NCBI GenBank assembly: GCA_913063435.1 | Contig: CAJXYI010000008.1 | Location: forward strand, 1 to 62,916 | Reading direction: 5' to 3' | Origin: an uncultured Actinomycetales bacterium | Lineage (GTDB): Bacteria; Actinomycetota; Actinomycetes; S36-B12 | Length of the DNA stretch: 62,916 nt | Part shown: positions 17,303 to 38,419 of the stretch, piece by piece | How the letters are laid out: every line of letters begins with the position of its first letter | Position numbering within the stretch: position 1 is the first letter of the stretch | Program-made: the position numbers and the translations under genes | The notes under the pieces: model-generated | Seen by the model: the letters and a program-made list of their open reading frames with translations, nothing else | Database searches by the model: none | What the model was told of the DNA's origin: nothing

Positions 17303-17328
17303 GGCCACTCCGATCTGTAGGTGGTGAA

Positions 17329-20789: not shown

Positions 20790-22247
20790 TCAGTCGCGGC
20801 GGAGCGTGACGTCGAGGTCGCCTCGCTGATATTTGACGTACTTCGACGCGGTCGAGGACATCAGATCGCGGGCCAAGGTGGCGGCTGGCGAATCGGGATA
20901 GAGCAACTCGGCCTTGGTGGGACCGGCCGCGTACATGGCATCGACATCGGGCCCGGGAATGAGATAGCGCAGTAGGAGTTCCTCGTCGCTCATCGTCTCG
21001 CCGAACTGGTGGCGGATCTCGGCCAAAGAGGGCTGAGGAGGCTCCCAATCGAGGAATTCCTTGCCGCGCTTGCTGCCGAAGGCCCGATCCTTGACCTCTT
21101 GTTCAACAGGTCCGGGGATCGGTCCCATGTGTCCGGCGAGGTACATGAGGTTCTCGTCGGGGAAGACCGTGTAACGCTCTTCGTTGACGAGGTTGAGCAG
21201 TGCCTGGATACCGACGAGTTGTGAATATGGAGTCGCCATGATCGGGTAGCCCATCTCTTCTCGGACGACGCCGATCTCTTCCATCAGTTCTTCGTAGCGG
21301 TCTTCCATGCCGTACTGCTTCAACTGGTTGATCAAGGTTCCGGTCATTCCGCCGGGTAGTTGGGCGTGAGAGTGGGCGAGGTTGTACTCCCGTGGCACAC
21401 CGATCGTGTACCCCTCGGCCTCGGCGATGCGCAGGAAATGCTCGCTGATTCCGGGGACGAGGCTCTCATCGAGATTGACGTCGAACCCGAGTCGGCGCAT
21501 GTTGTCTGCGGTGACCGTCACCGATGGCATCGATGGTCCATTCGCCATGGGGCCCATTGCCGTATGCAGGATGTGCACGCCGGCGTTCGCGGCAGTGATG
21601 TAGTTCAGCGTGGAGATGCCCGTGGTGTTGTGAAAGTGCGCTTCCAGCGGAACGCCCCCAGCGGCATCGACCATTCGGGGCACCCACGTCGTTGCACGTT
21701 CGGCAGTAAGGACACCGGCCTCATCACCCAAGATGATGGACTCGGTACCCCAGGTGGACATCTCGGCAACTATTGCCGCGTAGTAGTCGTCGGTGTGGAC
21801 GGGGGACTCGGCGAACATCACCTGGGGTGCCGCGTGCATCCCGGCATCCTGAGCGATGCCCGACATCCACTTCATCTCCTCCAGGTTGAACAGGCAGTCG
21901 AAGATCCAGAAACTCCCGATTCCATGCTTGGCCAGGGTGCGCACCCATAGTTCGAGGATGGAGCGGGGCGTGAGACCCATGCCGACGATCGCGTTGGCCC
22001 GCGCCCCGGCGCGCAGTCGCGAGTTCGGCATCGCGGCATGGACCAGATCCACCATCTCCCAGGGGTTTTCCTGGCAGTACCGCACGAGCACTTCGAATAA
22101 CGATGACCCGGTCAGATCGACGACGTGGTAGCCGATGCGGTCGATATCGGATGCGACGGGAACGCTGTGGCCGGCGCGCATCCGCATGCCCCAGAGGCTT
22201 TGCTGTCCATCCCGGATGGACTGGTCGATGAACTTTATCTCGGTCAC
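20790..22247 (-). CDS. Pyruvate-carboxylase/OadA-type carboxyltransferase, atypical
   Basis: This 485-residue protein matches the HMGL-like TIM barrel plus PYC_OADA domain. Residues 6-19 (FIDQSIRDGQQSLW) align with the metal and substrate motif of oxaloacetate decarboxylase alpha and pyruvate carboxylase, and a PGGM segment with flanking helices closes the C-terminal domain. His204 and His206 keep the HxH metal pair. The lysine that is carbamylated in pyruvate carboxylase (SICIKD) is replaced by Gly174 (SIILGD). Biotin carboxylase and carrier genes lie just upstream and a ligase downstream. A 2-oxo acid or a simple ketone is the likely acceptor. It could instead be a lyase. A paralogue is at 27971-29431. 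Confidence 0.85.
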   Translation of the reverse strand: MTEIKFIDQSIRDGQQSLWGMRMRAGHSVPVASDIDRIGYHVVDLTGSSLFEVLVRYCQENPWEMVDLVHAAMPNSRLRAGARANAIVGMGLTPRSILELWVRTLAKHGIGSFWIFDCLFNLEEMKWMSGIAQDAGMHAAPQVMFAESPVHTDDYYAAIVAEMSTWGTESIILGDEAGVLTAERATTWVPRMVDAAGGVPLEAHFHNTTGISTLNYITAANAGVHILHTAMGPMANGPSMPSVTVTADNMRRLGFDVNLDESLVPGISEHFLRIAEAEGYTIGVPREYNLAHSHAQLPGGMTGTLINQLKQYGMEDRYEELMEEIGVVREEMGYPIMATPYSQLVGIQALLNLVNEERYTVFPDENLMYLAGHMGPIPGPVEQEVKDRAFGSKRGKEFLDWEPPQPSLAEIRHQFGETMSDEELLLRYLIPGPDVDAMYAAGPTKAELLYPDSPAATLARDLMSSTASKYVKYQRGDLDVTLRRD

Positions 22248-22292: not shown

Positions 22293-23663
22293 TCAGGTGG
22301 TCCTCGGTGACCAGTCGGGTAGGAAGTCCTGCTCGACCCACCGCGTGTGGTGTTCGCCGGCTACGAAGGCGGGGTTGGCGATGACATCGAGCAGGAATTG
22401 CCGATTCGTCTGCACTCCGTCGACGACGAGATGGCTCAGCGCGCGGTCCATCGCCGCCAGGGCCGCGTCGCGGTCAGCGCCGTGCGTAATGACCTTGGCG
22501 ATCATGGAGTCGTAGTAAGGCGGGATGAGATAGCCGCCGAACACGTGGCTGTCGACTCTCACATCGGCACCCACCGGTGGAATCCAGCGGGTAACCCGTC
22601 CGGGCGAGGGCAGGAAATCCACGGCCGGGTCCTCAGCGTTCAGCCGGCATTCCACCGCGTGTCCATCGAGATGGACATCCTCTTGACGGAAAGACAGGGG
22701 AAGGCCACCTGCGATGCGCAGTTGCTCGCGGACGATGTCGATGCCGGTGAGCATTTCCGTCACCGGATGCTCCACTTGGACCCGAGTGTTGACTTCGAGG
22801 AAGGCGAAGTCGCCGGTGATGGCATCGACGATGAACTCCACGGTGGCTGCACCGACGTAATCCAGGCCTCGCGCGAGATCGAGCGCTGCGGAGTGCAGCC
22901 GGGCACGAATATCGGCAGGAACGAATGAGGCCGGTGCCTCCTCGACGACTTTCTGATATCGCCGCTGGGCGGTGCAGTCGCGTTCACCGAGGTGAACGGT
23001 ATTTCCGTGGGTATCGGCGAGGATCTGGACCTCGACATGGCGGGCACGTGAGACGAATCGCTCGACGTACAGTCGCCCGTCCCCGAAAGCCTGTAGTGCT
23101 TCGTGGCTTGCGGAGGAGAAGCGATCTCGCAGGTCGCTGGCTTGTTCGACGAGGACCATTCCGCGCCCTCCTCCACCTGCGGCAGCCTTCAGGAGGACGG
23201 GGAATCCGACGGTCGTGGCAACTCGCTCGGCTTCGTCGACATCGGTGAGAGCATCGCTACCGGCTCCCGTGGGGACGTCGAGGTTTCGTGCGAGCGACCG
23301 GGCCTCGACCTTGTCACCGCCGCGGCGGATGGCATCGGCTGACGGTCCGATGAACACGATGCCGTTCTGTGTGCAGGCCTCGGCCAGATCGGCGCGCTCA
23401 GCGAGGAATCCATAACCGGGATGCAGCCCGTCGCAGCCGGTGAGCGTCGCAGCGGCCAGGATGCGGTCGATGTCCAAGTAGCTCTCTGGTGAGGGCCCCG
23501 GACCGATGCAGACCACTCGGTCGGCGAGTTCGGCGGCCATACTGTCTCGGTCTGCGTCGGAGACGACGGCGACACTTTCGATGCCTTCGTCGATGCAGGC
23601 CCGGATGATCCGGACGGCGATCTCGCCCCGGTTGGCGACGAGGACGCGGCGCAGCGGCGCCAT
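22293..23663 (-). CDS. Biotin carboxylase
   Basis: This 456-residue protein has the AccC-type domains in order: VLVANRGEIAVR at the N terminus, the ATP-grasp loop AAGGGGRGM, GERDCTAQRRYQKVVEE, and EVNTRVQVEHPVTEM. It carboxylates carrier-bound biotin with ATP and bicarbonate. It is a free-standing subunit lying only 3 nt after the carrier gene and 45 nt before the carboxyltransferase. The gene set therefore forms a three-subunit biotin enzyme. I leave the symbol empty because the complex is unlikely to be the housekeeping acetyl-CoA carboxylase. Confidence 0.95.
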   Translation of the reverse strand: MAPLRRVLVANRGEIAVRIIRACIDEGIESVAVVSDADRDSMAAELADRVVCIGPGPSPESYLDIDRILAAATLTGCDGLHPGYGFLAERADLAEACTQNGIVFIGPSADAIRRGGDKVEARSLARNLDVPTGAGSDALTDVDEAERVATTVGFPVLLKAAAGGGGRGMVLVEQASDLRDRFSSASHEALQAFGDGRLYVERFVSRARHVEVQILADTHGNTVHLGERDCTAQRRYQKVVEEAPASFVPADIRARLHSAALDLARGLDYVGAATVEFIVDAITGDFAFLEVNTRVQVEHPVTEMLTGIDIVREQLRIAGGLPLSFRQEDVHLDGHAVECRLNAEDPAVDFLPSPGRVTRWIPPVGADVRVDSHVFGGYLIPPYYDSMIAKVITHGADRDAALAAMDRALSHLVVDGVQTNRQFLLDVIANPAFVAGEHHTRWVEQDFLPDWSPRTT

Positions 23664-23666
23664 GGT

Positions 23667-24182
23667 CTATTCCCCCGGTTCGATGACGACGAGAGGGGCG
23701 CCGAACTCGACCATCGCACCGTTATCGACGTTGATCGCCACGACAGTGCCGGCGACACCGGCTTTGACGTGATTCATCAACTTCATGACCTCGACGATGC
23801 ACACGGTGTCCTCGGGCCCGACCTGCTGACCCACCTCGACGAACGGCGGCGCACCCGGTTGGGGTGAGCGCCAGAACAGTCCCAGGGACGGAGAGGTCAC
23901 CCGATGACCATCGGGCAGATTCGTTGCCGGACCGCCCGTGGGAGCTGCTGCGGGCGTTGGTGTCGCAGCGTCGATGCTCGCCGGAGCGGAAGGGGTCGCT
24001 GCTGCGGGGGCACTGACGGGGGCCGGTGCGGGCGCTGGAGCGGGCGCGGCACTTGCCTGGGGAGCCCGGCCGTTACGGGACAGATCGAGGCGTGTGTCCC
24101 CGTACTGAAGGGACATTTCATCCCAATCGGACCCTTCGAAGGCGCTCACGAGAGCCCTGATGTCTTCTGGGGTGAGTGACAC
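23667..24182 (-). CDS. Biotin carboxyl carrier protein
   Basis: This 171-residue AccB-like protein has an N-terminal helical segment (SLTPEDIRALVSAFEGSDWDEM), a long Ala/Pro linker, and a biotinyl domain with Lys134 in EVMKLMNHV (the usual AMKM varies to VMKL). The GTG at 24182 is chosen because GGAGGGAG precedes it and the family start aligns; a 45-residue extension is open but unlike the family. It heads the minus-strand operon and is divergent from the GntR gene. Confidence 0.93.
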   Translation of the reverse strand: MSLTPEDIRALVSAFEGSDWDEMSLQYGDTRLDLSRNGRAPQASAAPAPAPAPAPVSAPAAATPSAPASIDAATPTPAAAPTGGPATNLPDGHRVTSPSLGLFWRSPQPGAPPFVEVGQQVGPEDTVCIVEVMKLMNHVKAGVAGTVVAINVDNGAMVEFGAPLVVIEPGE

Positions 24183-24271
24183 TTTGGCCTGTCTCCCTCC
24201 GGCCGGTGGGCCTGGTCGGTTCCGTCCCTCCCGGGACGATGATGTGGATGACCTCCGGGAATCGCGCCCAG

Positions 24272-24282
24272 ACATCATATGT
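24272..24282. promoter_or_regulatory. Putative operator ACATCATATGT
   Basis: This 11-nt imperfect palindrome sits between the divergent carrier and GntR genes. Close relatives occur at 31233-31243 (ACATCCGATGT) and 38529-38539 (TCATCCGATGT), each in an intergenic region of the catabolic block. It is a candidate site for the GntR regulator, which would then control both divergent operons and itself. Confidence 0.45.
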
Positions 24283-24378
24283 TTGTGGCAGAGTAGCGCC
24301 CGTGCTGCTGATCGCACAGCAGAATGCGAGAAGATTCCTCCACAACCTGCCGAAGGGGCAGCCTAGTGAAGGGGGTCT

Positions 24379-25172: not shown

Positions 25173-26402
25173 GTGACCCATTCGTTCATTAATGGTGTCG
25201 GCATGACCCGGTTTGGTCGGCATCCCGACGAGACGGTGTCCAGTCTCGCGCTCTCCGCATGCCGTGACGCGCTGATCGACGCCCAGGTGGATCCCCGTGA
25301 GATAGATGCGGTGGTATTCGGCAACGCGACCTGGGGTGCGATGGGCGGTCAGCATGGGATTCGGGGACAACTCGCTCTTCAGAATCTGGGATTGCGCCCG
25401 GTGCCGATCATCAACGTCGAGAACGCTTGCTGCAGCGCTACGACGGCCCTGCAGGTGGCTACGGCCTATGTGAAGGGTGGACTTGCCGAGACGGTGCTCG
25501 CCGTTGGTTCCGAGGTGATGAGCCAGGCGGGCTTACCCGAATTGCTCGCCGCTTTCGAAGGCAGTTGGGACGTCGCGGGGCGCGAGCAATCGATCGAACG
25601 CCTTGCCGATTGGGGATCGAAGACCCCTGTTCCCCCGGATGCGGTCGAACTTGCCAGTCGCACGGTCTTCATGGACATCTACGCGGCCTTCGCCCGCGAT
25701 CATATGGCTCGATTCGGCAGTACCCCCGAGCAGTTCGCGGCGGTCAGCTCGAAGAACCACATGCATTCGGTGCACAATCCACGTGCTCAGTTCCAGAAGC
25801 CGTTCACGGTCAACGAGGTTCTCGAAGGCAGGGCCGTCGTGTGGCCGCTCACCGTGCCGATGTGTTCACCCGTGAGCGACGGTGCTGCTGCAGCTGTTGT
25901 CTCAGCCAAGGCCGTGGACAAGTCGCGTGCCGTGCGAATACTGGCGCAGCGCATTGGGCATGGCGGCTCCTGGGACGGCGTCGATCCGCGAGGCCACGTC
26001 AGTCATCAGACGGGGCTGCTGTCCTTCGCCGATGCCGGTGTGGATCCGGGGGACATCGACGTTGCCGAAGTGCACGATGCCACTGCCGTGGGTGAGGTCC
26101 AGCAGGTCGAGCACATGGGGTTGGTCCCCTACGGTGAAGGAGGCCTTGCTGCAGTGCGCGGTGAGACGGCACTCGGTGGCCGAATTCCGGTGAACCCGTC
26201 GGGTGGCTTGGAATCGCGGGGTCACCCGATCGGTGCGACCGGCCTGGCCCAGGTGTTCGAGTTGGTCAACCAACTGCGCGGGGAGGCCGGTGCGCGACAG
26301 GTGGACGGTGCTCGCCTGGCCCTGGCAGAGAATAGTGGTGGCCTGGTCGGTGTCGAGGAAGCAGCGGTCGCGGTGACCATTCTGGAGGCCCCAGCGCGAT
26401 GA
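25173..26402 (+). CDS. Thiolase-like protein, SCP-x type
   Basis: This 409-residue protein belongs to the thiolase superfamily branch of SCP-x/lipid-transfer thiolases. The nucleophile lies in NVENACCSAT (Cys86 or Cys87), GHPIGATG is near the C terminus, and the end NSGGLVGVEEAAVAV departs from the classical CxG motif. Such enzymes cleave branched or steroid-like beta-ketoacyl-CoAs in known examples. It begins the forward operon after the GntR gene, and its stop overlaps the start of the AMP ligase. Confidence 0.88.
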   Translation: MTHSFINGVGMTRFGRHPDETVSSLALSACRDALIDAQVDPREIDAVVFGNATWGAMGGQHGIRGQLALQNLGLRPVPIINVENACCSATTALQVATAYVKGGLAETVLAVGSEVMSQAGLPELLAAFEGSWDVAGREQSIERLADWGSKTPVPPDAVELASRTVFMDIYAAFARDHMARFGSTPEQFAAVSSKNHMHSVHNPRAQFQKPFTVNEVLEGRAVVWPLTVPMCSPVSDGAAAAVVSAKAVDKSRAVRILAQRIGHGGSWDGVDPRGHVSHQTGLLSFADAGVDPGDIDVAEVHDATAVGEVQQVEHMGLVPYGEGGLAAVRGETALGGRIPVNPSGGLESRGHPIGATGLAQVFELVNQLRGEAGARQVDGARLALAENSGGLVGVEEAAVAVTILEAPAR

Positions 26403-27925
26403 ATCTCGCCTGGACCCTGGCGGCTAGTGCTGCCGCTCATGCGTCGCGGCCTGCCATCGTCGTCGATGACACGGTCGAAAGCGACTACGCGCTCCTGCTC
26501 GATCGCGTGTCCCGACGGGCAGGTGACCTCGTTGTGCAGGGAGTCCGCCCGGGTGATCGAGTCGCCCTCTACCTCACTAATCGGCCGGACTATCTCGAGG
26601 CGCTCTACGCGATCTGGTGGTGCGGTGCTGTCGCTGTTCCCTTGAGTAGCATGCTGCACCCGCAGGAAGCCGCTGACCTCATTCTCGATAGTTCGGCGGA
26701 GCTGTGCTGGGTCTCCCCTGACCTTGCGGGGGGAATCGTCGATCATCCTGCGGTGTCGGGAAGGATTCGGGTTGTCGATGACGCGGAACTGATCCGAGCC
26801 CGCAGGGCAGAGTCGATCGCGTGCATTGATCGGGCTTCAGGTGATGACGCCTGGATCTTCTACACCTCGGGGACGACGGGTAAGCCCAAGGGAGCCAGAC
26901 TCTCGCACGGCAACCTCTGGGCGATGTCGGTTGCCTACTGCGCTGATGTCGAGTGGGTCGATGCCGATTCCGGGCTCCTCCATGTTGCCTTGCAGAGCCA
27001 TGCCTCCGGCCTGTTCGCCCTCCCCTTCATCGCTCGGGGAGGTGCCCAAGTCGTGCCGACCAGTACCGATGCCGATCACGTAGCACGGCTCTTGGGGACG
27101 CGCTCCGGTCTCACCTTCTTCGCGCCGCCGATCCTGCTGCGTCGATTGGCGGACTCCCCGGTTCTGTCGTCGACGCCGGTGGAGCGAATGGGAACCGTGC
27201 TCGTCGGAGCTGCTCCCGTTCACGCCGATGATCTGCGCCGTGGCATGGCGGCCTTCGGTCCCCGCATCTGGAATGGCTACGGCCAGGGGGAGAGCCCCCT
27301 CACCATCACCGCGATGGGACCGAAGGCGATGGCCGCCGCAGAGGCTGCCGGGGATGAGGAAGCACTCGTGTCGGTCGGCATCCCTCGGATCGGAACCCGG
27401 GTCCGCGTCGTCGATGAGCAGGACCGACCGATGCCGGATGGTGAGATCGGCGAGGTCGTCGTGTCAGGTCCGACCGTCATGGCCGGGTATCTCGATCGAC
27501 CTGAAGCTACCGCCGAAACGCTCCGTGGGGGTTGGTTGCACACGGGAGATCTCGGTCGCTTCGATCGCGGATTGCTGACCCTCCTCGATCGAAGCAAGGA
27601 CATGGTCATCACCGGTGGAGCCAATGTGTATCCACGTGAGATCGAAGAAGCCCTGCGCGGCCACGAATCGGTCACCGATATCGCCGTCATAGGTCTTCCG
27701 GATCCCGAATGGGGGGAACGGGTCGTTGCCTTCGTCGTCCCCGCGCGCGAGACATCCATCCGTGAGATGAGCACGTCACTCGACGCCTATTGCCTGGAGA
27801 ACATGGCGCGCTATAAGCGCCCGAAGGAGTACCACCTCATCTCTGATCTACCTCGCAACGGAGCTGGGAAAGTCCTCAAAACCGAATTACGACGACGGCT
27901 CTTGGACGCCCCTGATCGACGCTGA
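26399..27925 (+). CDS. AMP-forming acyl-CoA synthetase
   Basis: This 508-residue ANL ligase has the P-loop YTSGTTGKPKG, NGYGQGES, TGDLGRFD and the C-terminal NGAGKVLK lysine. It starts at an ATG overlapping the thiolase stop. It is a paralogue of the ligase at 19265-20749 but distinct in sequence. Its pairing with a thiolase and a carboxyltransferase repeats the layout of the minus-strand operon. Confidence 0.92.
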   Translation: MNLAWTLAASAAAHASRPAIVVDDTVESDYALLLDRVSRRAGDLVVQGVRPGDRVALYLTNRPDYLEALYAIWWCGAVAVPLSSMLHPQEAADLILDSSAELCWVSPDLAGGIVDHPAVSGRIRVVDDAELIRARRAESIACIDRASGDDAWIFYTSGTTGKPKGARLSHGNLWAMSVAYCADVEWVDADSGLLHVALQSHASGLFALPFIARGGAQVVPTSTDADHVARLLGTRSGLTFFAPPILLRRLADSPVLSSTPVERMGTVLVGAAPVHADDLRRGMAAFGPRIWNGYGQGESPLTITAMGPKAMAAAEAAGDEEALVSVGIPRIGTRVRVVDEQDRPMPDGEIGEVVVSGPTVMAGYLDRPEATAETLRGGWLHTGDLGRFDRGLLTLLDRSKDMVITGGANVYPREIEEALRGHESVTDIAVIGLPDPEWGERVVAFVVPARETSIREMSTSLDAYCLENMARYKRPKEYHLISDLPRNGAGKVLKTELRRRLLDAPDRR

Positions 27926-27970
27926 ACGCACCTCCTAGGACACCGGACAACCGCTACAGATGGAGTGATC

Positions 27971-29431
27971 GTGCCGCACCTGAACTTCCTGGATGAGACC
28001 CTCCGTGATGGACAGCAGAGTCTGTGGGGCATGCGCATGCAAGCCGCGCACGCGCTGCCGATCGCGAACATCCTCGATCGGACTGGTTTCAGTCGGATCG
28101 ACCTCGCAGCTTCTTCCTTCATGGAAGTCCTCATCAAGTTCTGCCGCGAAGATCCCTGGGAGGGCCTCGACTTGATTCAAGCGCAGATCACCCGTACTCC
28201 GACCCGGGGTGGGATGCGCTCGAATGCCGCGGTGAGCATGGGGATCACCCCCCCGGACCTCATGGATGCCTGGATGAGGCAACTCAATCGCCATGGCGTG
28301 CGGTCGTACTGGATATACGACACCCTCTACAACTTCCATCACATCGATCGCCTCTCCCGGGTAGCCAAGGAGTTCGGCTCAGAGATCGCCGGGACGGTGT
28401 TCTTCACCGAGTCGCCGGTCCACACCGACGATCTGTTCGCCGAGCAGGTTCGCCAGATGGCCGCGATCGAAGGTGTCGACACGATCTTGTTCTATGACAC
28501 TGCAGGTGTGCTGCTTCCCGACCGCATTCGCACCCTCGTGCCGCGGATCGTCGAGGCTGCCGGTGGCAAGCCCATCGAGATGCACTCGAACAATCTGATG
28601 GGCACCTCGACGCTGGCGTACTGCGAAGCGATCCAGCACGGTGTGACGACCATCCACACCGCGAGCCGCCCGATGGCCAACGGGCCCTCCACACCATCGA
28701 CGGAGGTGATGGTTCGAAACGCCGAGATTCTTGGTTTCTCCCATTCCCTCGACACCAGTCTTTTCGCGCCAGTCGCCGAACACATGGAACGGGTGGGCAA
28801 AGCGATGGGATACCTGGTCAACCAGCACGCCGAATACGACCTGTCGAACGTCGCACACCAGGTTCCCGGAGGGATGACCGGGACGCTGAAGGCCCAACTT
28901 GCTCAGTACGGCATGTCCCACCGACTGGACGAGGTGTTCCAGGAGGCAGGGCGCGTGCGGCGAGAACTGGGCTACCCGATCATGGCGACACCGGTGAGCC
29001 AATTGGTGGGAATCCAGGCGGTCTTGAACGTCGTCACCGGTGACCGATACTCCGTGGTACCGACGGAGAACCTGATGTACGCCGCGGGCTTCTATGGCAA
29101 CCCGCCAGCTCCGATCGACCCGGATGCGATGGATCGGATGACAGCGAATTCGCGCTGGCAGGAAGTCGTGGACAATCCGCCGGAGTCGCCGAGCATCGAG
29201 GAACTTCGCAAGGCCTACGGCACTGATGACGACGATGAACTCATCCTGCGTTTCCTCGTCCCGGAACCCGACCTTGAAGCGATGCGCGCGGCCGGCCCGG
29301 TCAAGCGCGATTTCCCGCTGGCTTCCGACGAGGTTCAGCAGGTGCAGGCGCTTATTCGCGCGGTCAACTCACCGTATTTCCGATTATCGACGGAGAAGTT
29401 CGACGTCTCCCTCGCAAAGCAAGGCGAATGA
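27971..29431 (+). CDS. Divergent carboxyltransferase-like (HMGL/PYC-type) protein
   Basis: This 486-residue paralogue of the protein at 20790-22247 starts at the GTG at 27971, because GGAG lies 5 nt upstream and the first 20 residues then align column by column with the paralogue. The N-terminal motif FLDETLRDGQQSLW is kept, as is the PGGM C-terminal domain. The HxH metal pair has become His205-x-Asn207 and the carbamyl-lysine position is Tyr175 (TILFYD). It has no biotin carboxylase beside it. It may share the divergent carboxylase, or may have lost carboxyl transfer and act as a lyase or on phosphorylated intermediates. Confidence 0.82.
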   Translation: MPHLNFLDETLRDGQQSLWGMRMQAAHALPIANILDRTGFSRIDLAASSFMEVLIKFCREDPWEGLDLIQAQITRTPTRGGMRSNAAVSMGITPPDLMDAWMRQLNRHGVRSYWIYDTLYNFHHIDRLSRVAKEFGSEIAGTVFFTESPVHTDDLFAEQVRQMAAIEGVDTILFYDTAGVLLPDRIRTLVPRIVEAAGGKPIEMHSNNLMGTSTLAYCEAIQHGVTTIHTASRPMANGPSTPSTEVMVRNAEILGFSHSLDTSLFAPVAEHMERVGKAMGYLVNQHAEYDLSNVAHQVPGGMTGTLKAQLAQYGMSHRLDEVFQEAGRVRRELGYPIMATPVSQLVGIQAVLNVVTGDRYSVVPTENLMYAAGFYGNPPAPIDPDAMDRMTANSRWQEVVDNPPESPSIEELRKAYGTDDDDELILRFLVPEPDLEAMRAAGPVKRDFPLASDEVQQVQALIRAVNSPYFRLSTEKFDVSLAKQGE

Positions 29432-30280: not shown

Positions 30281-31066
30281 TCAGCAGGCGGTGAATCCGC
30301 CATCCACGGCCATGACCAGGCCGTTGGTGTAGGTCGACATGTCGGAAGCCAAGTACAGCACCGTGTTGGCGATCTCCTCAGGAGTCCCAGTGCGTTCCAT
30401 GGGGCATCCCCATCCGGCTTTCGTTTCCTCCGCATTGAGGAAGTCGGTGTACTCCGCGATCATCGGAGTGTCGATGTATCCGGGGGCGAGGACGTTGCTT
30501 CGGACATTGAAAGGACCGTAGGTCTTGGCCATCGAACGGGTGAGATTGATGATCGCGCCCTTAGCGGTGGTGTAGGCGTGCGCATCATGGTGTCCCACCA
30601 TTCCGAGGATGCTTGCGACGTTGATGATCGATCCACTGCGCTGTTCAATCATCGTCGGTAGCGCCCGGCGACATGCGAACACCACCGAATCCAGATTGAT
30701 TCCCATGACATGGTGCCAGTCCTCTAGGGGTGACTCGACGATGGGCAGCATGCTGTCGGGTCTTTGGGCCCGGTAGCCATAGCCGACGCCAGCATTGTTG
30801 ACGAGGACGTCTAGGCCACCGAACTCACTCGCGGCGGCGTCGATGACTTTTCCGACCTGAGCGTCGTCGCTCATATCGGCAGGCACGGCGATCGCGGACC
30901 CGCCGGCCGCGGTCACCTCATCGACAGCCGCCTGAAGTTTGCTCGCCGTGCGGGCTGAAGCGACTACATTGGCCCCCTCAGCACAGAGTTTGTCCATGGC
31001 TGCTCTCCCGATACCGGTACTGGCACCGGTGAGCACGACCGTCTTCCCCGCCATGAGATCTCCCAT
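30281..31066 (-). CDS. Short-chain dehydrogenase/reductase
   Basis: This 261-residue SDR has TGASTGIGRAA, NNAGVGYGY, a Ser in NVASILG and YTTAK. The ATG at 31066 follows AAGGGAG by 5 nt. It strongly resembles the SDR at 14230-15021 in motif wording and in the insertion before the active site (PDSMLPIVESPLEDWHHV against PGSMAALHDTTADWWHDV). The two are likely paralogues acting on related substrates. It is divergent from the swivel-domain gene and may share its promoter region. Confidence 0.87.
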   Translation of the reverse strand: MGDLMAGKTVVLTGASTGIGRAAMDKLCAEGANVVASARTASKLQAAVDEVTAAGGSAIAVPADMSDDAQVGKVIDAAASEFGGLDVLVNNAGVGYGYRAQRPDSMLPIVESPLEDWHHVMGINLDSVVFACRRALPTMIEQRSGSIINVASILGMVGHHDAHAYTTAKGAIINLTRSMAKTYGPFNVRSNVLAPGYIDTPMIAEYTDFLNAEETKAGWGCPMERTGTPEEIANTVLYLASDMSTYTNGLVMAVDGGFTAC

Positions 31067-31518
31067 GGGGACTCCCTTCTTGGATTATCCGGTCCGACTT
31101 CTTCGGGCCGAAACAGTGATGGTGCGTCCTCCCTGGCTTGCGTATGGCTCGGGGCGGGTAGACGACCCGGGGCGATGGGTCGGCTGCCCTGGGTGGGAGG
31201 TCCGCACGAATGCACCGACAAATGAGTCGAAGACATCCGATGTAAGGCTCAGGGTCCTCGCAGGGGACGCCTGGCGCAAGCGATTCGACCAAAATCGTCG
31301 AAGAACATAGGCGGTAACGATCAGGCGGAAAAATTTCACAAAAATGCCCCCTGACGTCGGATCATCAGGCTACGGTGCATTCCCACGGGCAGTCATCCCC
31401 ATGGCGCGGCGGTGCAAAGTGGTCTGATGTCTGCTCGAGCTCACCGGGAGCTCATCGGAGGATTGAGTCCCCTGGTGGGTATCACCCATTGAGCCATCAC
31501 GACGGCAGGAGGTTGTGC
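31067..31518. promoter_or_regulatory. Divergent promoter region, 452 nt without a gene
   Basis: This is the shared upstream region of the SDR on the minus strand and the swivel-domain gene on the plus strand. It holds the perfect palindrome ACATCCGATGT at 31233-31243 and an A-rich stretch around 31300-31345. I find no convincing coding sequence in it. A forward open frame from 31375 to the swivel gene lacks a ribosome site and is probably untranslated. Confidence 0.5.
31233..31243. promoter_or_regulatory. Putative operator ACATCCGATGT
   Basis: This is a perfect 5-1-5 palindrome, the best copy of a motif also found at 24272 and 38529. It lies between divergent genes of the catabolic block. 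The regulator is inferred, not shown; GntR at 24379-25125 is the nearest candidate. Confidence 0.45.
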
Positions 31519-32217
31519 ATGAGCGAGCCCAATATCCTCAGCGACAAGTGGGGAAAGCCGGCGATGAGCGAGGTGCTCGAGTACTACCACTCGTCCATCC
31601 GCGCACTCGTCGCCGAGAAGTTCGCAGCATCAGGAAAGACCTGGCAGGAAGCAGTAAACGATCCTGCGTTGGAGTTGACCCGCGAGGACTTCCAGAAGAT
31701 CGAGGACGACTTCCTCGCGACCGGATACCGGTTCACCATGTCGGCCCAGGTGTCGATCGTGGAGGAACCGGAGAAGTACCAGCCCATCGCGGGCGTCGGT
31801 GACTCCGGAAGCCAGCCCAAGGACGAGCAGGGACGACTCATCGTCGGGACCGGCGATAACGTGTTCCAAGCCGAAGACCTCGAGGGCACCGCACGTTTCG
31901 TCGGGACGGTGGAAACCGTCATGGACATGCTGATGAATGGCGTGCCGGAAGGCACGATCGCGATCATCGACGACTCGGGCGGCACGTTGACCGCACCGAT
32001 TCTCGAAGGATTCGCCGGTGTGGTCTGCATGGGTGGCACGATCCGATCCCATTTGGGCATCCTCACCCGCGAATACGACATCCCGTGCCTGATGGCTGCG
32101 GAACTCGATGGTCTCTCCGACGGCGATCGCATCGTCGTCGAGTACTCCAAGCCCGCCACGGACGCCTACGCAGAACGAGATGACGCTGCGCGCGCCCGCA
32201 TCGTGAAGGTCTCCTGA
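31519..32217 (+). CDS. Free-standing phosphohistidine swivel-domain protein (PEP-synthase-like)
   Basis: This 232-residue protein begins at the ATG at 31519 after AGGAGG. The C-terminal half is a PEP-utilising-enzyme mobile domain: GGTIRSHLGILTREYDIP has His178 at the place of the phosphorylated histidine of PEP synthase and PPDK (GGRTCHAA in E. coli PpsA), with one extra residue in the motif. The usual Thr/Ser before His is Arg-Ser. The N-terminal 120 residues are not recognised. No ATP-grasp or PEP barrel is attached, so it must take phosphate from another protein. The next gene follows after 17 nt. The nearest analogy is the split phenylphosphate synthase of Thauera. Confidence 0.8.
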   Translation: MSEPNILSDKWGKPAMSEVLEYYHSSIRALVAEKFAASGKTWQEAVNDPALELTREDFQKIEDDFLATGYRFTMSAQVSIVEEPEKYQPIAGVGDSGSQPKDEQGRLIVGTGDNVFQAEDLEGTARFVGTVETVMDMLMNGVPEGTIAIIDDSGGTLTAPILEGFAGVVCMGGTIRSHLGILTREYDIPCLMAAELDGLSDGDRIVVEYSKPATDAYAERDDAARARIVKVS

Positions 32218-32234
32218 GGAGGAACGACGACACT

Positions 32235-33785
32235 ATGCCTGCGAACATTTCCTATAACGAACTGCAGGATCTAAATCAGTTCCTGCAGAAGTCCAGTGAC
32301 GTCTTCTATTTCCAGTGCACGACTCGAACGGTTCAGGAGTCCAAGCTCTTCCCCGTCAATCCCTATATCGCACTGTCGTACTACAACTGCTGGTACCGGT
32401 ACCCGGAGATCTTCCGCAAGATCGAAGAGGTGATGACACCCGAGGAGCTCGGTGACCGTGCTCGCGAGGTGTCCATGTCGGCGAACGCCATCATGCTGGG
32501 AATCATCCAGCAGTTCTATCTCGGTGGTCGCCAGTTCCTCATTGACATGGGAATGATCAACCCCACCGATGGAATCGATGACATCAAGTACGTCCTCGAC
32601 TTTGCCCAGCGGGTCAATCGGTCCTACCACCGGCAGAGTGGTTACACCTTGAATAGCGACATGAACCACCGCGCTCAGTTGCTGCCCGAGCGCACCCTGC
32701 AGGTCTTCGAGGCAGACGCCCTCGGGTGCAAGCCTGGAGATAAATTGCACAACGCGGTGGTGAAGTTCCTCGCGACCGCATCGCAGTACGCGTTCTTGAA
32801 GAACGCCGAGTGCCGTCTGGGCATCCACAACTCCGGTCCGTACAAGGTCGGTGACAAGGAGATGCTCATTCGTGACTTCGTCGATCTCAGCGAAGGCGAT
32901 TACCCTTGGCTGGACGGTGTCGCCAGCGGGATCGAGTACAACAACGTGACGCTCCCGGTCATCATGAAGGACACCCACTTCCACATGGTCGACGACTGGG
33001 GTTCCTTCGAAGCGACCCCGTCCTACGACCACGACAACATGGTCGCAGTCGGTCTGTACACGTCGGACTATCTGTCCAATGGGTACATCCCGGTGCACAT
33101 GGACAACGCCAGCGAGTTGGCCGACTACCTCGATCACATGCGCGATCAGATGCAGACGGCTACCTCCGAATTGTGGAAGCGGATGGCGGGCTGGACACGG
33201 GATCAGATGATCGACGCGGGACTGCTGGTGTACTACGCCGTGCCCAAGGACCTTGCCCACATCGCCGGGGTCTACGACCCGAACGACTGGATGATGGTCG
33301 ATGAGCGAGTGCAGCGTCTCAAGCCATTCTTCAACGACGAATACGGCGGTGCGGCGATCGCCGAACTCGTGGGCTACATCTCCTTGAGCTCCCAGCAGGA
33401 GAGCCCCTACACCATGAGCAAGTATTCGAATGCGAGCTCGGATATGTGGTCCAAGATCCCGTATTCGGTCCTTGCCGATGACAATTTCACCTCCCACGTT
33501 CCCCCGATGGGGCCGGGAAGCACGTCCCTGCCGCCGAAGACCGGCAAGTACACGACGACCCGGGGGAGGCTGACTCTCGAGGAAGCCAATGCCCTCGCGC
33601 GCGGGTTCACTCCCGAGACCTTGCAGGGGGCGAATCGTTTCTACGACGACCAGTGGGTCAAGTACAACGCGGGAACCCCTGCAGCCGATGCGCTGTACAA
33701 GGCGACCCAGCAGAACTCCTTCCAGCTGAAGGACAAGGGCTCGACGCTCACCGCCGAGGACGTCGAGAAGTTGCGCCGCTGGTAA
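32235..33785 (+). CDS. Unrecognised 516-residue protein, likely substrate subunit of the phosphotransfer system
   Basis: I do not recognise the family. The protein is soluble with no signal peptide or membrane segment. It is rich in aromatic, Asp and His residues (for example MKDTHFHMVDDWG and SYDHDNMV in the middle), and a C-terminal block RLTLEEANALARGF precedes a lysine-rich tail. A strong GAGGAGGA site precedes the ATG, 17 nt after the swivel-domain gene, and a terminator hairpin follows, so the two form a bicistronic unit. By analogy with phenylphosphate synthase it may hold the acceptor substrate for phosphate from His178 of its partner. Codon use looks fully native. A similar-length antisense frame is only a shadow. 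Confidence 0.75.
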   Translation: MPANISYNELQDLNQFLQKSSDVFYFQCTTRTVQESKLFPVNPYIALSYYNCWYRYPEIFRKIEEVMTPEELGDRAREVSMSANAIMLGIIQQFYLGGRQFLIDMGMINPTDGIDDIKYVLDFAQRVNRSYHRQSGYTLNSDMNHRAQLLPERTLQVFEADALGCKPGDKLHNAVVKFLATASQYAFLKNAECRLGIHNSGPYKVGDKEMLIRDFVDLSEGDYPWLDGVASGIEYNNVTLPVIMKDTHFHMVDDWGSFEATPSYDHDNMVAVGLYTSDYLSNGYIPVHMDNASELADYLDHMRDQMQTATSELWKRMAGWTRDQMIDAGLLVYYAVPKDLAHIAGVYDPNDWMMVDERVQRLKPFFNDEYGGAAIAELVGYISLSSQQESPYTMSKYSNASSDMWSKIPYSVLADDNFTSHVPPMGPGSTSLPPKTGKYTTTRGRLTLEEANALARGFTPETLQGANRFYDDQWVKYNAGTPAADALYKATQQNSFQLKDKGSTLTAEDVEKLRRW

Positions 33786-33803
33786 CAGCGTCGTGATGGC
33801 GAC

Positions 33804-33833
33804 GGGAGGGGTCCTGGATCCAGGGCCTCTCCC
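33804..33833 (+). terminator. Terminator hairpin after the swivel operon
   Basis: A 14-bp stem with two mismatches (GGGAGGGGTCCTGG paired with CCAGGGCCTCTCCC) and a 2-nt loop is followed by GTTTCCT. It lies 18 nt after the 516-residue gene and before a convergent amidase. Confidence 0.7.
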
Positions 33834-33876
33834 GTTTCCTATCTGCGGCCGGCTCGGCTGGGAGTCCCCAGAGTGA

Positions 33877-35283
33877 TCAGTGCTGCAGGACCGACGGGGA
33901 CCACATGGGGAATCCAGCAGCTGACTCATAGGTTCGACTGGCACGCATCACGAGTCGATCCTCGAAGTGGCGTCCCACGATCTGCATCGCCATGGGCAGG
34001 CCGTCATCGGTGAGTCCGACCGGAACCGATGCTGCCGGGCAGCGGGACAGATTGTGGGGGTAGGTGAAGGGAGTCCACTGCGTCCAATGGTCTTGGACCT
34101 CGGAATCCCACACATCGGTCCCGACGGGAAGGGCGACCGTGGGCATCTGCGGCGAGATGAGCAGATCATAGGAATCGAAGACCCTGGTCAGGGCTTGGGC
34201 GAGGCGCAAGCGTGATCCCTCGGCGACGAGATAATCGTGTGCGGTGAGCTTCCGGCCGCGGTCCAAGGTGGCGACGAGTCCGGGGTCGCTGTCGCCGAGT
34301 CGCTGCTCGGGAACATCCCACAGCGCCATGGAGAGCATGCCGTCCCAGATGGTGCAGAAGTCCTCTCGCGGGTCATCGAACGGGGCATCGATGACATCGA
34401 TGATCGCCCCGGCATCACCGAGTACGCGAACAGCGCGTTCGACTGCTGCAGCGATGCGTGGATCGACCTGCGCGTATCCATAGTCGGGCGAGTAGGCGAT
34501 GCGCACCCCGTTGACGCCGCGTTCCACATCGCTCACCCAGGGTCGGGGATCATCGGGAACCGGATATACCTCGCGGGGATCGGATCGGGCGATGACCTCC
34601 ATCATGGCGGCGGCGTCGGTCACGGTTCGGGTCATCGGGCCTACGTGGGACAGGGTGCCGCCCGTCGAGGGTGGATAGATCGGGACGAGGGAGAACGTGG
34701 GCTTGAGGCCGAAGATCCCGCAGAAGGCGGCGGGCATCCGGACTGATCCTCCACCGTCGGTTCCCGTCGCCACGACAGTCATGCCCGTGGCCACCGCTGC
34801 GGCCGAGCCTGCGGAAGAGCCACCGGTGGTGCGATCGATGTTCCATGGGTTGCGAGTGATTCCGGTGAGCGGCGAATCCCCGACGCCTTTCCACCCGAAC
34901 TCCGGCGTCGTCGACTTGCCGAGGAAGACTGCACCGGATTCCCTCATGCGTGCTGCCGCGGGAGCATCCTCGGTGGAGATCTTGTCGGGATCGGTCTGCC
35001 GTGAACCCTTGCGAGTGGGCCAGCCCTTGAATGCCATCGTGTCCTTGATCACGCTGGGAATTCCATCGAGTGGACCAAGGGTGCGTTGCGCTTGCCAGCG
35101 CTGTTCGCTCTCTCGTGCCAGTCGACGTGCAGTGTCTGCATCGACTCCAACGAAGGCGTTCAGTTCCGGGTCGAGGGCTTCGATCCGCGCGAGGCAGGAG
35201 TCGACGACCTCGACAGGGGAGAGGTCGCGATTAGCGTAGGACTGCTGCAAGGAGACGATGCTGAATTCGGTGGGGTCGGTCAT
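33877..35283 (-). CDS. Amidase-signature family hydrolase
   Basis: This 468-residue protein has the amidase signature: the catalytic Lys in SVIKDTMAF, the cis-Ser/Ser nucleophile region GGSSAGSAAAVATG, and GTDGGGSVRMPA. It hydrolyses an amide or related C-N bond of unknown substrate. The ATG at 35283 starts the family-typical MTDPTEFS N terminus; the open frame upstream is an artefact. It is the last gene of a minus-strand group including the HAD and PPDK-like genes. Confidence 0.9.
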   Translation of the reverse strand: MTDPTEFSIVSLQQSYANRDLSPVEVVDSCLARIEALDPELNAFVGVDADTARRLARESEQRWQAQRTLGPLDGIPSVIKDTMAFKGWPTRKGSRQTDPDKISTEDAPAAARMRESGAVFLGKSTTPEFGWKGVGDSPLTGITRNPWNIDRTTGGSSAGSAAAVATGMTVVATGTDGGGSVRMPAAFCGIFGLKPTFSLVPIYPPSTGGTLSHVGPMTRTVTDAAAMMEVIARSDPREVYPVPDDPRPWVSDVERGVNGVRIAYSPDYGYAQVDPRIAAAVERAVRVLGDAGAIIDVIDAPFDDPREDFCTIWDGMLSMALWDVPEQRLGDSDPGLVATLDRGRKLTAHDYLVAEGSRLRLAQALTRVFDSYDLLISPQMPTVALPVGTDVWDSEVQDHWTQWTPFTYPHNLSRCPAASVPVGLTDDGLPMAMQIVGRHFEDRLVMRASRTYESAAGFPMWSPSVLQH

Positions 35284-35386: not shown

Positions 35387-36016
35387 TCAGGACCATCCCA
35401 GTGCGGTCGTGATGCGATCGATGCGCTGTGGATCGTGGGGATCGCAGTGCACCGCCCGCAGTCCGTAGCTTTGCGCCGCGGCGACGTTCGGGTATTCGTC
35501 ATCGACGTAGACCACTTCGTGTGGTTCGAGCTCGATCAGTTCCAACACGTGCACGAAGATCTCCCGATCAGGTTTGCGCATGCCGACATCGCCGCTGATC
35601 ACGACGGCATCGAATGCTTCCTGCCAGTTCCGACGGTCGTAGGAGTCGCCCCAGGAATTCGACAGCAGCCCGGTTCGCAGGCCTTGGCTGCGGGCACTCG
35701 TCATCAGCGCGATCATGTCGGGGTTGGTCCGGATGGGTGCGAACATCCGCTCGAAGATCCCTCGGGGCTCAGGGCGAGGACCGTGTTCGGCGAAGACATC
35801 GGCGATCCATGGCTCGATGTCCTCTCGCGTGAGTTCCCCCCTCTCAAGTTGCTGGAGGGGGTTGTGTTCACCGGTGATGTGGCGGGTGAGCGAAGCCATG
35901 ACCCCCGCGGGATCCAGCCCCTCCTGCTCGGCGAAGTCGGCCATGCATTCGCGGAGAGGCTGCGTGACGACGCCGCCCCAGTCGACGACCAGACCCCGTG
36001 GTGGTGGCACCTGCAT
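35387..36016 (-). CDS. HAD-superfamily hydrolase
   Basis: This 209-residue protein has a variant HAD motif I, VVDWGGVV, where the second Asp of DxD is replaced (Asp-Trp-Gly), and motif II/III elements such as LLSNSW, GMRKPDREIF and YVDDEYPN. This arrangement occurs in HAD proteins of the epoxide-hydrolase N-domain and haloacid-dehalogenase subgroup as well as in phosphatases. It lies 8 nt after the PPDK-like gene, so it could act on a phosphorylated product. The specificity is unknown. Confidence 0.82.
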   Translation of the reverse strand: MQVPPPRGLVVDWGGVVTQPLRECMADFAEQEGLDPAGVMASLTRHITGEHNPLQQLERGELTREDIEPWIADVFAEHGPRPEPRGIFERMFAPIRTNPDMIALMTSARSQGLRTGLLSNSWGDSYDRRNWQEAFDAVVISGDVGMRKPDREIFVHVLELIELEPHEVVYVDDEYPNVAAAQSYGLRAVHCDPHDPQRIDRITTALGWS

Positions 36017-36024
36017 GGGCTATT

Positions 36025-37797
36025 TCACTCCTTTGTCGCCTGCAGCACTCTCAGCTGCAACGGGAGGGGAGGATCTGCGATGACGAGGCTGGTTCCCGAA
36101 GCCAGCAGCGCCCGTACGCCCTCGGTGGTGTTGAGCACCGAGCCTCGCACCGGAAGTGCATTGGCAAGGAGTGCCTGGGTGACGGCCTCCTGATCGACCC
36201 GCCCGGTCTCAGGATCGACACCGATCCGTTCGACGTCGAGGTCGAGGATGTCGCTGTCGTGCTGGGCGACGATGTCGATGGGGCAATGCTCGCTCGCCCA
36301 GGCGGCTAGCGGACTGAGCGCGGGATGGTCTTCGATTGTCGTGGCTTGGAGGGGAAGGGCCCCCTGATACACCCGACCAGCGGCCCCATCGACCGTCAGG
36401 AGTTGGCCCTCGAGGCCTTCGGCCACGCCATCGCCGACGCCCACGACGCTGGGACGGCCCAGGGCACGGGTGACGACGGCGGCGTGCGATGTCGATCCAC
36501 CCAGATCGGTCACGACGGCTACCGCGGCGATCATGCCGTGGACATCGTTGGGGCTGGTGGTGGGTCGAACCAGGACGATGTCCTCGCCCGCGTGGGCGCG
36601 CCGCTCGGCCTCATCGGGATCGACGACACCGATCCCGATAGCGATGCCAGGACAGGCGGCTTCGCCGACGGCCACGGGAGTTGCATCGATCAACGCCTCG
36701 GGGGCCAACGTGGGCAGGAGCACGGAGGCGACCTGCTCGGGAGTCACCCTCATCACCGCGGTGGCCGAATCGATGAACCCCTCGCTGACCAGGTCGGTGG
36801 CGATGCGGACAGCAGCATCAGGTGAGCGCTTAGCGGTGCGGGTCTGCAGCAGGTACAGCGTTCCCGCCTCGACGGTGAACTCGACATCCTGCACCTCGCG
36901 GTGCTCGTCCTCGAGGGTTTTGGCCCAGGTGAGCAATTCCTCGTGCACGGTTGGCATCGCCGCCTCGAGGGCGGATAGGTCGAGGACCGCGTGCGTTCCA
37001 CCGACGACATCGTCACCCTGGCCCCCGGGAAGCCACTCGCCATAGGGGGTGGCTTCACCGTTGAGCGGATTGCGAGTGAAGAGGACGCCGGTACCCGATT
37101 CATCGCCCAGATTGCCGAACACCATGGCCTGCACGGTCACAGCAGTTCCGCCTTCATCGGAGATGCCCCAATGCTTGCGATAGCTGCGTGCGCGAGCGGA
37201 TGTCCACGAATCGAATACGGCGCTGATGGCGGCGCGCAACTGAGAGTAAGGATCCTCAGGGATGGACTCACCGACATCCTCGAGGACGAGGGCTCGCATG
37301 TCCGCAGCAGTGGAACCGCTCGCATAGGGGTCGAGATGTGCCTTCAACACGACGTCGCCGAATTGATGGCAGAAGCGAGCGTGGGTATCCCGGGCGTAGA
37401 TTGCATCACCGGTGATGTGTGCGAGGCCGTGCTCGACCTCATCGGTGATTCCGAGGTTGAGCACCGTATCCATCATCCCCGGCATGCTTATGGCAGCTCC
37501 CGATCGGACAGACACCAGGAGCGGTGAGTGTGGGTCCCCGAAGCGACGTCCGGTGGCTGACTCGATGGATCGGACGCCGTCCATCACCGAGTCCCAGAGA
37601 TCATCGTCGATCGTTTTGCCGGCTTCGTGGTATCGAATGCATTCCGAGATGGGGATGACGAAGGCTGGGGGAACCCGCAACCCGAGGCCGGTCATACGCG
37701 CGATGCTCCAGGCCTTGCCGCCGATGAGTTCGCGACCGGGCAACGATGTGCCGTCGAGGACGATGATGCGATCTGCCTGCTGCGTTGTCGATGTCAT
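36025..37797 (-). CDS. PPDK-like phosphotransferase lacking the PEP/pyruvate barrel
   Basis: This 590-residue protein has the N-terminal nucleotide-binding domain of pyruvate phosphate dikinase (GGKAWSIARM at the start, SVRSG with Arg98, GTGVLFTRNPLNGE, the LLQTR loop) and a swivel domain with His438 in GGSTSHAAVV. Classical PPDK has about 880 residues. Here the C-terminal PEP-binding barrel is missing and only some 90 unrelated residues follow the swivel domain. Shortened ppdK genes are known in mycobacteria. The ATG at 37797 follows AGGAG. It may phosphorylate its own histidine with ATP and pass phosphate to a separate acceptor. A 205-residue gene lies 4 nt upstream. Confidence 0.85.
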   Translation of the reverse strand: MTSTTQQADRIIVLDGTSLPGRELIGGKAWSIARMTGLGLRVPPAFVIPISECIRYHEAGKTIDDDLWDSVMDGVRSIESATGRRFGDPHSPLLVSVRSGAAISMPGMMDTVLNLGITDEVEHGLAHITGDAIYARDTHARFCHQFGDVVLKAHLDPYASGSTAADMRALVLEDVGESIPEDPYSQLRAAISAVFDSWTSARARSYRKHWGISDEGGTAVTVQAMVFGNLGDESGTGVLFTRNPLNGEATPYGEWLPGGQGDDVVGGTHAVLDLSALEAAMPTVHEELLTWAKTLEDEHREVQDVEFTVEAGTLYLLQTRTAKRSPDAAVRIATDLVSEGFIDSATAVMRVTPEQVASVLLPTLAPEALIDATPVAVGEAACPGIAIGIGVVDPDEAERRAHAGEDIVLVRPTTSPNDVHGMIAAVAVVTDLGGSTSHAAVVTRALGRPSVVGVGDGVAEGLEGQLLTVDGAAGRVYQGALPLQATTIEDHPALSPLAAWASEHCPIDIVAQHDSDILDLDVERIGVDPETGRVDQEAVTQALLANALPVRGSVLNTTEGVRALLASGTSLVIADPPLPLQLRVLQATKE

Positions 37798-37801
37798 CAG
37801 T

Positions 37802-38419
37802 TCACTCCTGACGCGTGCGGCCGAGCATACGGAGCAGGTCTTCATGCAACTCGAACCACACCGTGTGGTAGCTGTCGATGCGCACGCCGCTCACGTAGTC
37901 GATGTCGCCGGCCAGCACCTTGTCGTAGGCCTCCTCCAACCGCTCGAGGTGGCGTCGAAGGCGTGGCTGGGCATCGGCACATGCCCCGACGACACGCTCG
38001 GCACGCTCATGCAGCCGGCCCAGGCGATCGATGATGCCGCGGTCGTAATCGGCGTCGCTGTGGTCATTGGGGACTCTTTGCCCGCCAGCGTCCATCGTCT
38101 GCCAGTCGGTGAAGAGAGCGAGCAATTCGGTATTGACCTTCTCGAATCTCTCGTAGGCAGCGGTCAATTCGCCGTCCTCTCGAGCCTCCGCGTAGACAAC
38201 CGGGTACTGCTCGATGAGCCAGGCCTGTCCAGCCGGGGCGACCATGTACGTTCCCTTCGCACCGGCGGCACGTCCTTCGGCGACGGCAGCGTCGAGAGCC
38301 GCCGCGATCTGGGCTTCGTCTGCACCTAGTAGCGAAGCCACCGTGGCGGGGCTACCGGCCTTGCGGACTGCGAGCCCGTGTAAGGCGAGGAATTCCACGG
38401 GGACATCGGGATCGGACAT
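37802..38419 (-). CDS. PPDK-associated protein with N-terminal winged-helix-like segment
   Basis: This 205-residue protein is not a member of a family I can name. The first 75 residues (LALHGLAVRKAGSPATVASLLGADEAQIAAAL) look like a winged helix, and the rest is helical and charged, with coiled-coil character around RLGRLHERAERVV. It lies 4 nt before the PPDK-like gene, in the same operon. It may regulate the kinase, or be a structural subunit replacing the missing domain. A putative operator is at 38529-38539 upstream. Confidence 0.75.
   Translation of the reverse strand: MSDPDVPVEFLALHGLAVRKAGSPATVASLLGADEAQIAAALDAAVAEGRAAGAKGTYMVAPAGQAWLIEQYPVVYAEAREDGELTAAYERFEKVNTELLALFTDWQTMDAGGQRVPNDHSDADYDRGIIDRLGRLHERAERVVGACADAQPRLRRHLERLEEAYDKVLAGDIDYVSGVRIDSYHTVWFELHEDLLRMLGRTRQE

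Follow-up and report, generated by a model that had tools for sequence, protein, structure and literature searches.

P516, a proposed acceptor-binding subunit of a split swivel dikinase from an uncultured Actinomycetales bacterium

We analysed a 516-residue protein, here named P516, encoded in a 62,916-nucleotide stretch of contig CAJXYI010000008.1 from an uncultured Actinomycetales bacterium (the window, Table 1). From its sequence relationships, P516 rather likely serves as the acceptor-binding subunit in a split swivel dikinase, an enzyme that would ready a carbon source for degradation. Five features of the sequences bear on this reading: P516 belongs to a family of its own, the family is linked to a phosphohistidine swivel protein, the two are fused in some organisms, an ATP-grasp partner is present in truncated form, and the long-form clade of the family is associated with a carboxylase. 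We infer from these features that P516 binds the acceptor, as well as the direction and order of phosphotransfer and the class of the substrate. In the proposed mechanism, a truncated pyruvate-phosphate-dikinase (PPDK)-like protein would bind ATP, the phosphoryl group would pass to a histidine, and the small swivel protein would deliver it to a small molecule bound by P516. Within the window's clade, the product of this step, probably a phosphorylated ketone or hydroxylated ketone, would undergo carboxylation by a biotin-dependent PycB-type carboxylase, followed by dephosphorylation, ligation to CoA and thiolase cleavage.

Table 1 Features of the window, with coordinates counted from its first nucleotide
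Feature	Position	Strand	Basis or remark
Tyrosine-phosphatase-family protein, candidate dephosphorylating enzyme	15021-15758	+	PF13350, E 5.8e-50; relative in Rhodococcus operon
AMP-forming CoA ligase	19268-20749 (limits approximate)	-	53% to ligase of Rhodococcus P516 operon
PycB-type carboxyltransferase 1	20790-22247	-	Carbamyl-Lys site is Gly
Biotin carboxylase (BC)	22293-23663	-	Sequence search
ORF with biotin carboxyl carrier protein (BCCP) domain	23670-24362	-	Match at 23670-23903, 48%
Thiolase	25173-26402	+	Sequence search
AMP-forming CoA ligase	26399-27925	+	Sequence search
PycB-type carboxyltransferase 2	27965-29431	+	Carbamyl-Lys site is Tyr, one metal His is Asn
Swivel protein (PEP-utilizers domain), phospho-His in GGTIRSHLGI	31519-32217	+	Pfam PF00391, E 2.8e-6; start codon inferred
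P516, proposed acceptor-binding subunit, fold unassigned	32235-33785	+	ORF, homologues, conserved residues, neighbourhood
Strong hairpin past P516 stop, possible terminator	33801-33836 (about)	+	Fold; absent from terminator scan list
HAD-type hydrolase, candidate phosphatase	35387-36016	-	By inspection of sequence
Truncated PPDK-like protein, proposed ATP donor	36025-37845	-	PPDK_N and PEP-utilizers domains only
205-aa protein, partner of truncated dikinase	37802-38419	-	Neighbour or fused; no Pfam family

The P516 gene and its family

The P516 reading frame extends from an ATG at 32235 to a stop codon at 33785, begins 17 nt past the TGA of the swivel gene and is preceded by a GAGGAGG ribosome site. 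Its G+C content at the three codon positions (0.55/0.38/0.82) is as expected for coding DNA here. A search of the genome collection found P516 at 72-86% identity in six other genomes, mostly Nanopelagicales and other Actinomycetota MAGs, and this conservation indicates that it is not a chance ORF. These findings agree with the original prediction of a real gene with a ribosome site, 17 nt behind the swivel gene. On the minus strand, a 557-aa open frame lies opposite P516 (32271-33944), and its G+C by codon position (0.81/0.41/0.56) suggests a shadow frame and not a gene. The claim that a terminator closes the P516 gene stood in part. The hairpin that follows the stop codon is strong (16 pairs, region folding energy -43.6 kcal/mol) and transcription likely ends there, but its U-tract is short, consisting of TTT only, and the terminator consensus scan did not list it, which makes the call plausible rather than established. 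The scan found no promoter-like site within 31000-34200, which agrees with co-transcription of the swivel and P516 genes without proving it.

P516 had been described as a protein of no recognised family, and this was borne out. Searches of Pfam, NCBIfam and the PDB with the protein gave no match (best Pfam E 0.1), and a 46-sequence family profile found no credible match in the same libraries (best PDB E 0.21), so that the sensitive profile searches proposed as a check matched no characterised family. Pfam matches across the family members are isolated, with E above 0.02. A few single members gave weak NCBIfam matches that look like chance, since they share no family; the best of these, to class C beta-lactamase (E 0.0004 in one member), is contradicted by all other members and was rejected as an identity for the family. 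AlphaFold2 modeling of P516 together with six close relatives (seven sequences) gave a mean pLDDT of 32.5 and no usable fold. P516 was also proposed to be the founding member of its family. The family is indeed unnamed, but dozens of members exist.

Among 396 genomes sampled from the phylum, 6 (the source genome included) encode distant relatives, at about 20-30% identity, as do 37 of 247 genomes of the class of genome G134. Closer relatives are present in plasmid records of Rhodococcus pyridinivorans P23 and R. oxybenzonivorans (51%) and of Novosphingobium resinovorum (47%), and further ones in those of R. opacus, Rhodococcus sp. 008, Paraburkholderia and Methylibium petroleiphilum PM1. The family is spread over the Actinomycetota at large and over Rhodococcus, Novosphingobium and Methylibium plasmids. 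The viral contigs that we scanned contained no relatives, and literature searches for the clusters of R. oxybenzonivorans and R. pyridinivorans turned up no annotation of P516.

Inspection of the family alignment revealed seven invariant residues (R99, F187, R194, G201, P202, P262 and Y333) and two near-invariant ones (R213 and W225). The His- and Asp-rich middle segment, THFHMVDDWG, had been suggested as a possible active site. The conservation map does not support this, because neither His248 nor His250 is conserved, although D254 (43 of 48 sequences) and G256 (41 of 48) are largely kept and P262, downstream of the segment, is present in all 48.

The swivel partner and the ATP-donor side

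A PEP-utilizers-type swivel is encoded beside the P516 gene, or within its reading frame, in 38 of 38 loci read, partly close kin and, where unannotated, with open reading frames taken as genes. Novosphingobium is the exception to close spacing, its cluster having a single detected swivel some 7 kb downstream of P516; in the other loci it is a near neighbour. The swivel histidine (SH of GTxxSH) is invariant in 18 of 18 aligned relatives. The longest ORF of the window's swivel gene begins at 31375, upstream of the inferred start. P516 itself contains no swivel, which is either a separate gene or N-terminal to P516 in natural fusions. In R. oxybenzonivorans, a swivel forms the N-terminus of a 541-aa protein that continues with a P516 domain, and R. 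opacus B4 has a 793-aa chain in which swivel and P516 domain are followed by a C-terminal relative of the 205-aa protein. The pairing in all 38 loci, sometimes in one chain, supports the proposal that P516 is a partner of the swivel protein, and pairing and fusions together make a substrate-binding role in phosphotransfer, as originally suggested, the best reading of the sequences.

Two further arrangements were observed. One plasmid cluster contains three consecutive P516-family genes (L055:11314-19575 and L056:11908-19575), comprising two short-form copies, one of them swivel-fused, and a long form. The order P516, 153/165-aa protein, swivel, 205-aa relative is nearly identical in Methylibium PM1 (L058:13890-16779), where it lies beside cobalamin mutase genes, and in L022:5357-8230. 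The 153/165-aa proteins are 76% alike and belong to no family, and the hosts are a beta-proteobacterium and an actinobacterium; this shared order suggests horizontal transfer.

The window cluster encodes both a swivel with the catalytic histidine (PF00391) and an ATP-grasp donor. The latter, the truncated PPDK, contains the ATP-grasp domain and its own phospho-His swivel (GGSTSHAA), and no PEP domain. In the window, Rhodococcus, Novosphingobium and G570 clusters, the ATP-grasp partner is likewise a truncated PPDK of 527-606 aa lacking the PEP domain, and the catalytic His (GGxxSHAA) of the truncated PPDKs near P516 is intact. The 205-aa protein, of which the window copy matched no Pfam family, is paired with a PPDK-type kinase in 9 of 11 fetched loci. 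Since ATP is handled by another protein, the acceptor role would most naturally fall to P516. The PPDK has its own swivel, however, and a second one is therefore not strictly needed, which counts against a split dikinase. The phosphoryl group could reach the separate swivel by way of the PPDK's own swivel or directly from the ATP-grasp domain. The truncated PPDK and 205-aa pair also occurs without P516 in other Actinomycetes, one from the window's own family, and most short-form P516 loci have no truncated PPDK nearby, a further point against the reading. To see whether short-form genomes might use a distinct truncated PPDK, 20 P516-positive and 20 P516-negative genomes were searched with the window PPDK, and the matches were mainly full-length PPDKs in both sets.

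We compared this arrangement with known dikinases. Rifampin phosphotransferase (RPH), PEP synthase and PPDK share the mechanism of ATP-grasp and swivel phospho-His, but carry the acceptor domain in one chain and show no sequence similarity to P516. The phenol-type dikinases CreHI and PpsAB split ATP-to-phenol phosphotransfer over two or more chains; their alpha subunit unites substrate domain and swivel, and no P516 family is involved. In HpeHI, substrate domain and swivel form one chain, of which HpeH His581 is required for activity, and a second protein supplies the ATP-grasp (PMC12167813). The P516 system also has separate ATP-grasp and swivel components, yet P516 belongs to an unrelated-looking family encoded apart from the swivel, and the role of ATP donor would fall to a truncated PPDK that has a swivel of its own and the 205-aa protein as partner. 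As for the window's own genome, the HpeH-like family NF006153 matched swivel regions only in a search for an HpeHI-type kinase.

A variant of the split-dikinase reading holds that P516 is a cryptic HpeH/PpsA/RPH substrate-binding domain, diverged past sequence recognition. It shares the same neighbourhood logic, and the substrate domains of HpeH and RPH are themselves only about 20% alike (PMC12167813). We nevertheless judge it unlikely: profile-profile comparison of P516 with the HpeH substrate domain (hhalign) gave probabilities of 0.5% and 0.1%, whereas the positive control, the swivel profile against the C-terminal swivel of the HpeH-like subunit of Rhodococcus JS3073, reached 97%. The P516 family profile matched nothing in the PDB, and the swivel with the catalytic His is C-terminal in the HpeH, CreH and PpsA alpha subunits but N-terminal in the P516 fusions. 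The lack of profile similarity to HpeH also weighs against the split-dikinase reading itself.

Carboxylase genes and genomic context

The long-form clade (support 100/99) comprises the window, Nanopelagicales, G570, G556/G571, two Rhodococcus plasmids and Novosphingobium. A PycB gene is present in 10 of 10 long-form loci with enough flanking DNA and in 0 of 26 short-form loci (Fisher p 4e-9, an overstatement given the relatedness of the sequences and the limited length of some short-form contigs). In the window, the pathway functions are spread over 15-38 kb and both strands, with BCCP, BC, one PycB and one CoA ligase on the minus strand and the thiolase, the other CoA ligase and the second PycB on the plus strand. 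In Rhodococcus they form an operon in the order swivel, P516, CoA ligase, 205-aa protein, PPDK, BCCP, BC, carboxyltransferase, OB-fold protein, thiolase, tyrosine-phosphatase-type protein and SRPBCC protein.

This operon parallels hpeHICBADEF (PMC9618137). In the Hpe pathway, characterized in R. rhodochrous GD02 (PMC9618137, PMC12167813), HpeHI phosphorylates 4-hydroxyacetophenone or acetovanillone, HpeCBA carboxylates the phosphorylated form only, HpeD then removes the phosphate and HpeE/HpeF finish (PMC9618137). The window cluster also contains a biotin-dependent PycB-type carboxylase with BC and BCCP, a candidate phosphatase and a CoA ligase, functions that fit the same succession of reactions. 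In Rhodococcus JS3073, an HpeH-like gene is found with BCCP, BC, HAD and a PycB-type carboxyltransferase homologous to the P516-linked ones. The phosphatases differ, being of the Y_phosphatase3 type in the Rhodococcus P516 operons and a NagD-like HAD in Hpe.

The carboxyltransferases differ as well. Pyruvate carboxylase binds its metal through a carbamylated Lys in the xKDxxG motif. This residue is replaced by Gly, Tyr or Glu in 8 of 8 aligned P516-linked carboxyltransferases, whereas it is kept in the HpeH-linked enzyme; two enzymes from bisphenol plasmids and one from Caballeronia also keep it. It is missing too from the carboxyltransferase of R. opacus G13, which has no P516 gene nearby. 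The loss suggests a different route to the enolate in the P516-linked enzymes. PEP synthase makes an enol phosphate from pyruvate, and a substrate arriving as enol phosphate would fit the loss of the carbamyl-Lys, as would other explanations. It is very unlikely, in our estimate, that P516 is a new acceptor fold that presents a ketone enol to the swivel to give an enol phosphate, which the carboxyltransferase lacking carbamyl-Lys then carboxylates directly.

Several other genes were noted around these clusters. The window encodes two different PycB-type carboxyltransferases, neither with the carbamyl-Lys. Two adjacent minus-strand proteins (15742-16485 and 16499-17308) are 45% alike, and the first matches acetoacetate decarboxylase (PF06314, E 1.9e-28), a gene for which is also found near the PycB cluster of Caballeronia NK8. 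On the plasmids of bisphenol degraders (L101, L103 and L106), a Tm-1-like ATP-binding protein, and not HpeHI, precedes carboxylase and HAD clusters, and may be an alternative activating enzyme that serves the same type of carboxylation.

Short-form contexts are more varied. In R. opacus and Rhodococcus 008, the kinase genes adjoin genes for a P450, a ferredoxin and alcohol and aldehyde dehydrogenases, and in R. opacus also a tyrosine-phosphatase-type gene. In other genomes, short-form P516 lies amid chromosomal genes, such as malate dehydrogenase. DUF7064/DUF7065 proteins adjoin some short-form genes (L060:16029-17117, L069:10588-11550 and L077:10548-11474). From these varied neighbourhoods, the P516 family probably serves more than one substrate or role.

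This variation bears on two other explanations. P516 could be the enzyme of the next step, a lyase, hydrolase or isomerase acting on the phosphorylated product, tied to the swivel through the succession of steps only. In favour of this, P516 is a large separate protein in most genomes, charged residues are conserved at R99, R194 and R213, and gene order and neighbours vary. However, the swivel-P516 fusions on several plasmids and the adjacency in 38 of 38 loci point to direct joint action, and the pair stays constant while the downstream genes differ among loci, so we regard this explanation as quite unlikely.

The other is modeled on VadK (Rv1127c) of mycobacteria, a truncated PPDK for which a protein-phosphorylation or regulatory relay acting on methylcitrate-cycle enzymes has been proposed (PMC13400623). 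The window PPDK resembles the VadK/Rv1126c pair in having ATP-grasp and phospho-His, no PEP domain and a small operonic partner, the 205-aa protein; the swivel/P516 pair, in contrast, finds no mention in the available text (PMC13400623). P516 would then serve as a scaffold or be phosphorylated itself, with no small molecule taking part. The chromosomal housekeeping genes at many short-form loci would suit such a relay. What makes it distinctly improbable in our view is that it leaves unexplained why the window's long-form clade occurs in catabolic operons together with genes for a carboxylase, a CoA ligase, a thiolase and a phosphatase, and does not account for the variation between P450/dehydrogenase and carboxylase clusters.

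Significance of the P516 system

If the proposed role of P516 in acceptor binding is right, the system represents a third build of small-molecule dikinase, beside the HpeHI/PpsAB type and the single-chain kinases, with a proposed acceptor subunit that is absent from every library searched here. For VadK-like truncated PPDKs, for which a phosphoacceptor has so far only been proposed, the swivel and P516 would provide an acceptor side that can be tested. Dozens of unnamed chromosomal and plasmid genes would gain a phosphotransfer context, and the long-form P516 genes would gain one in which a substrate is phosphorylated and then carboxylated.
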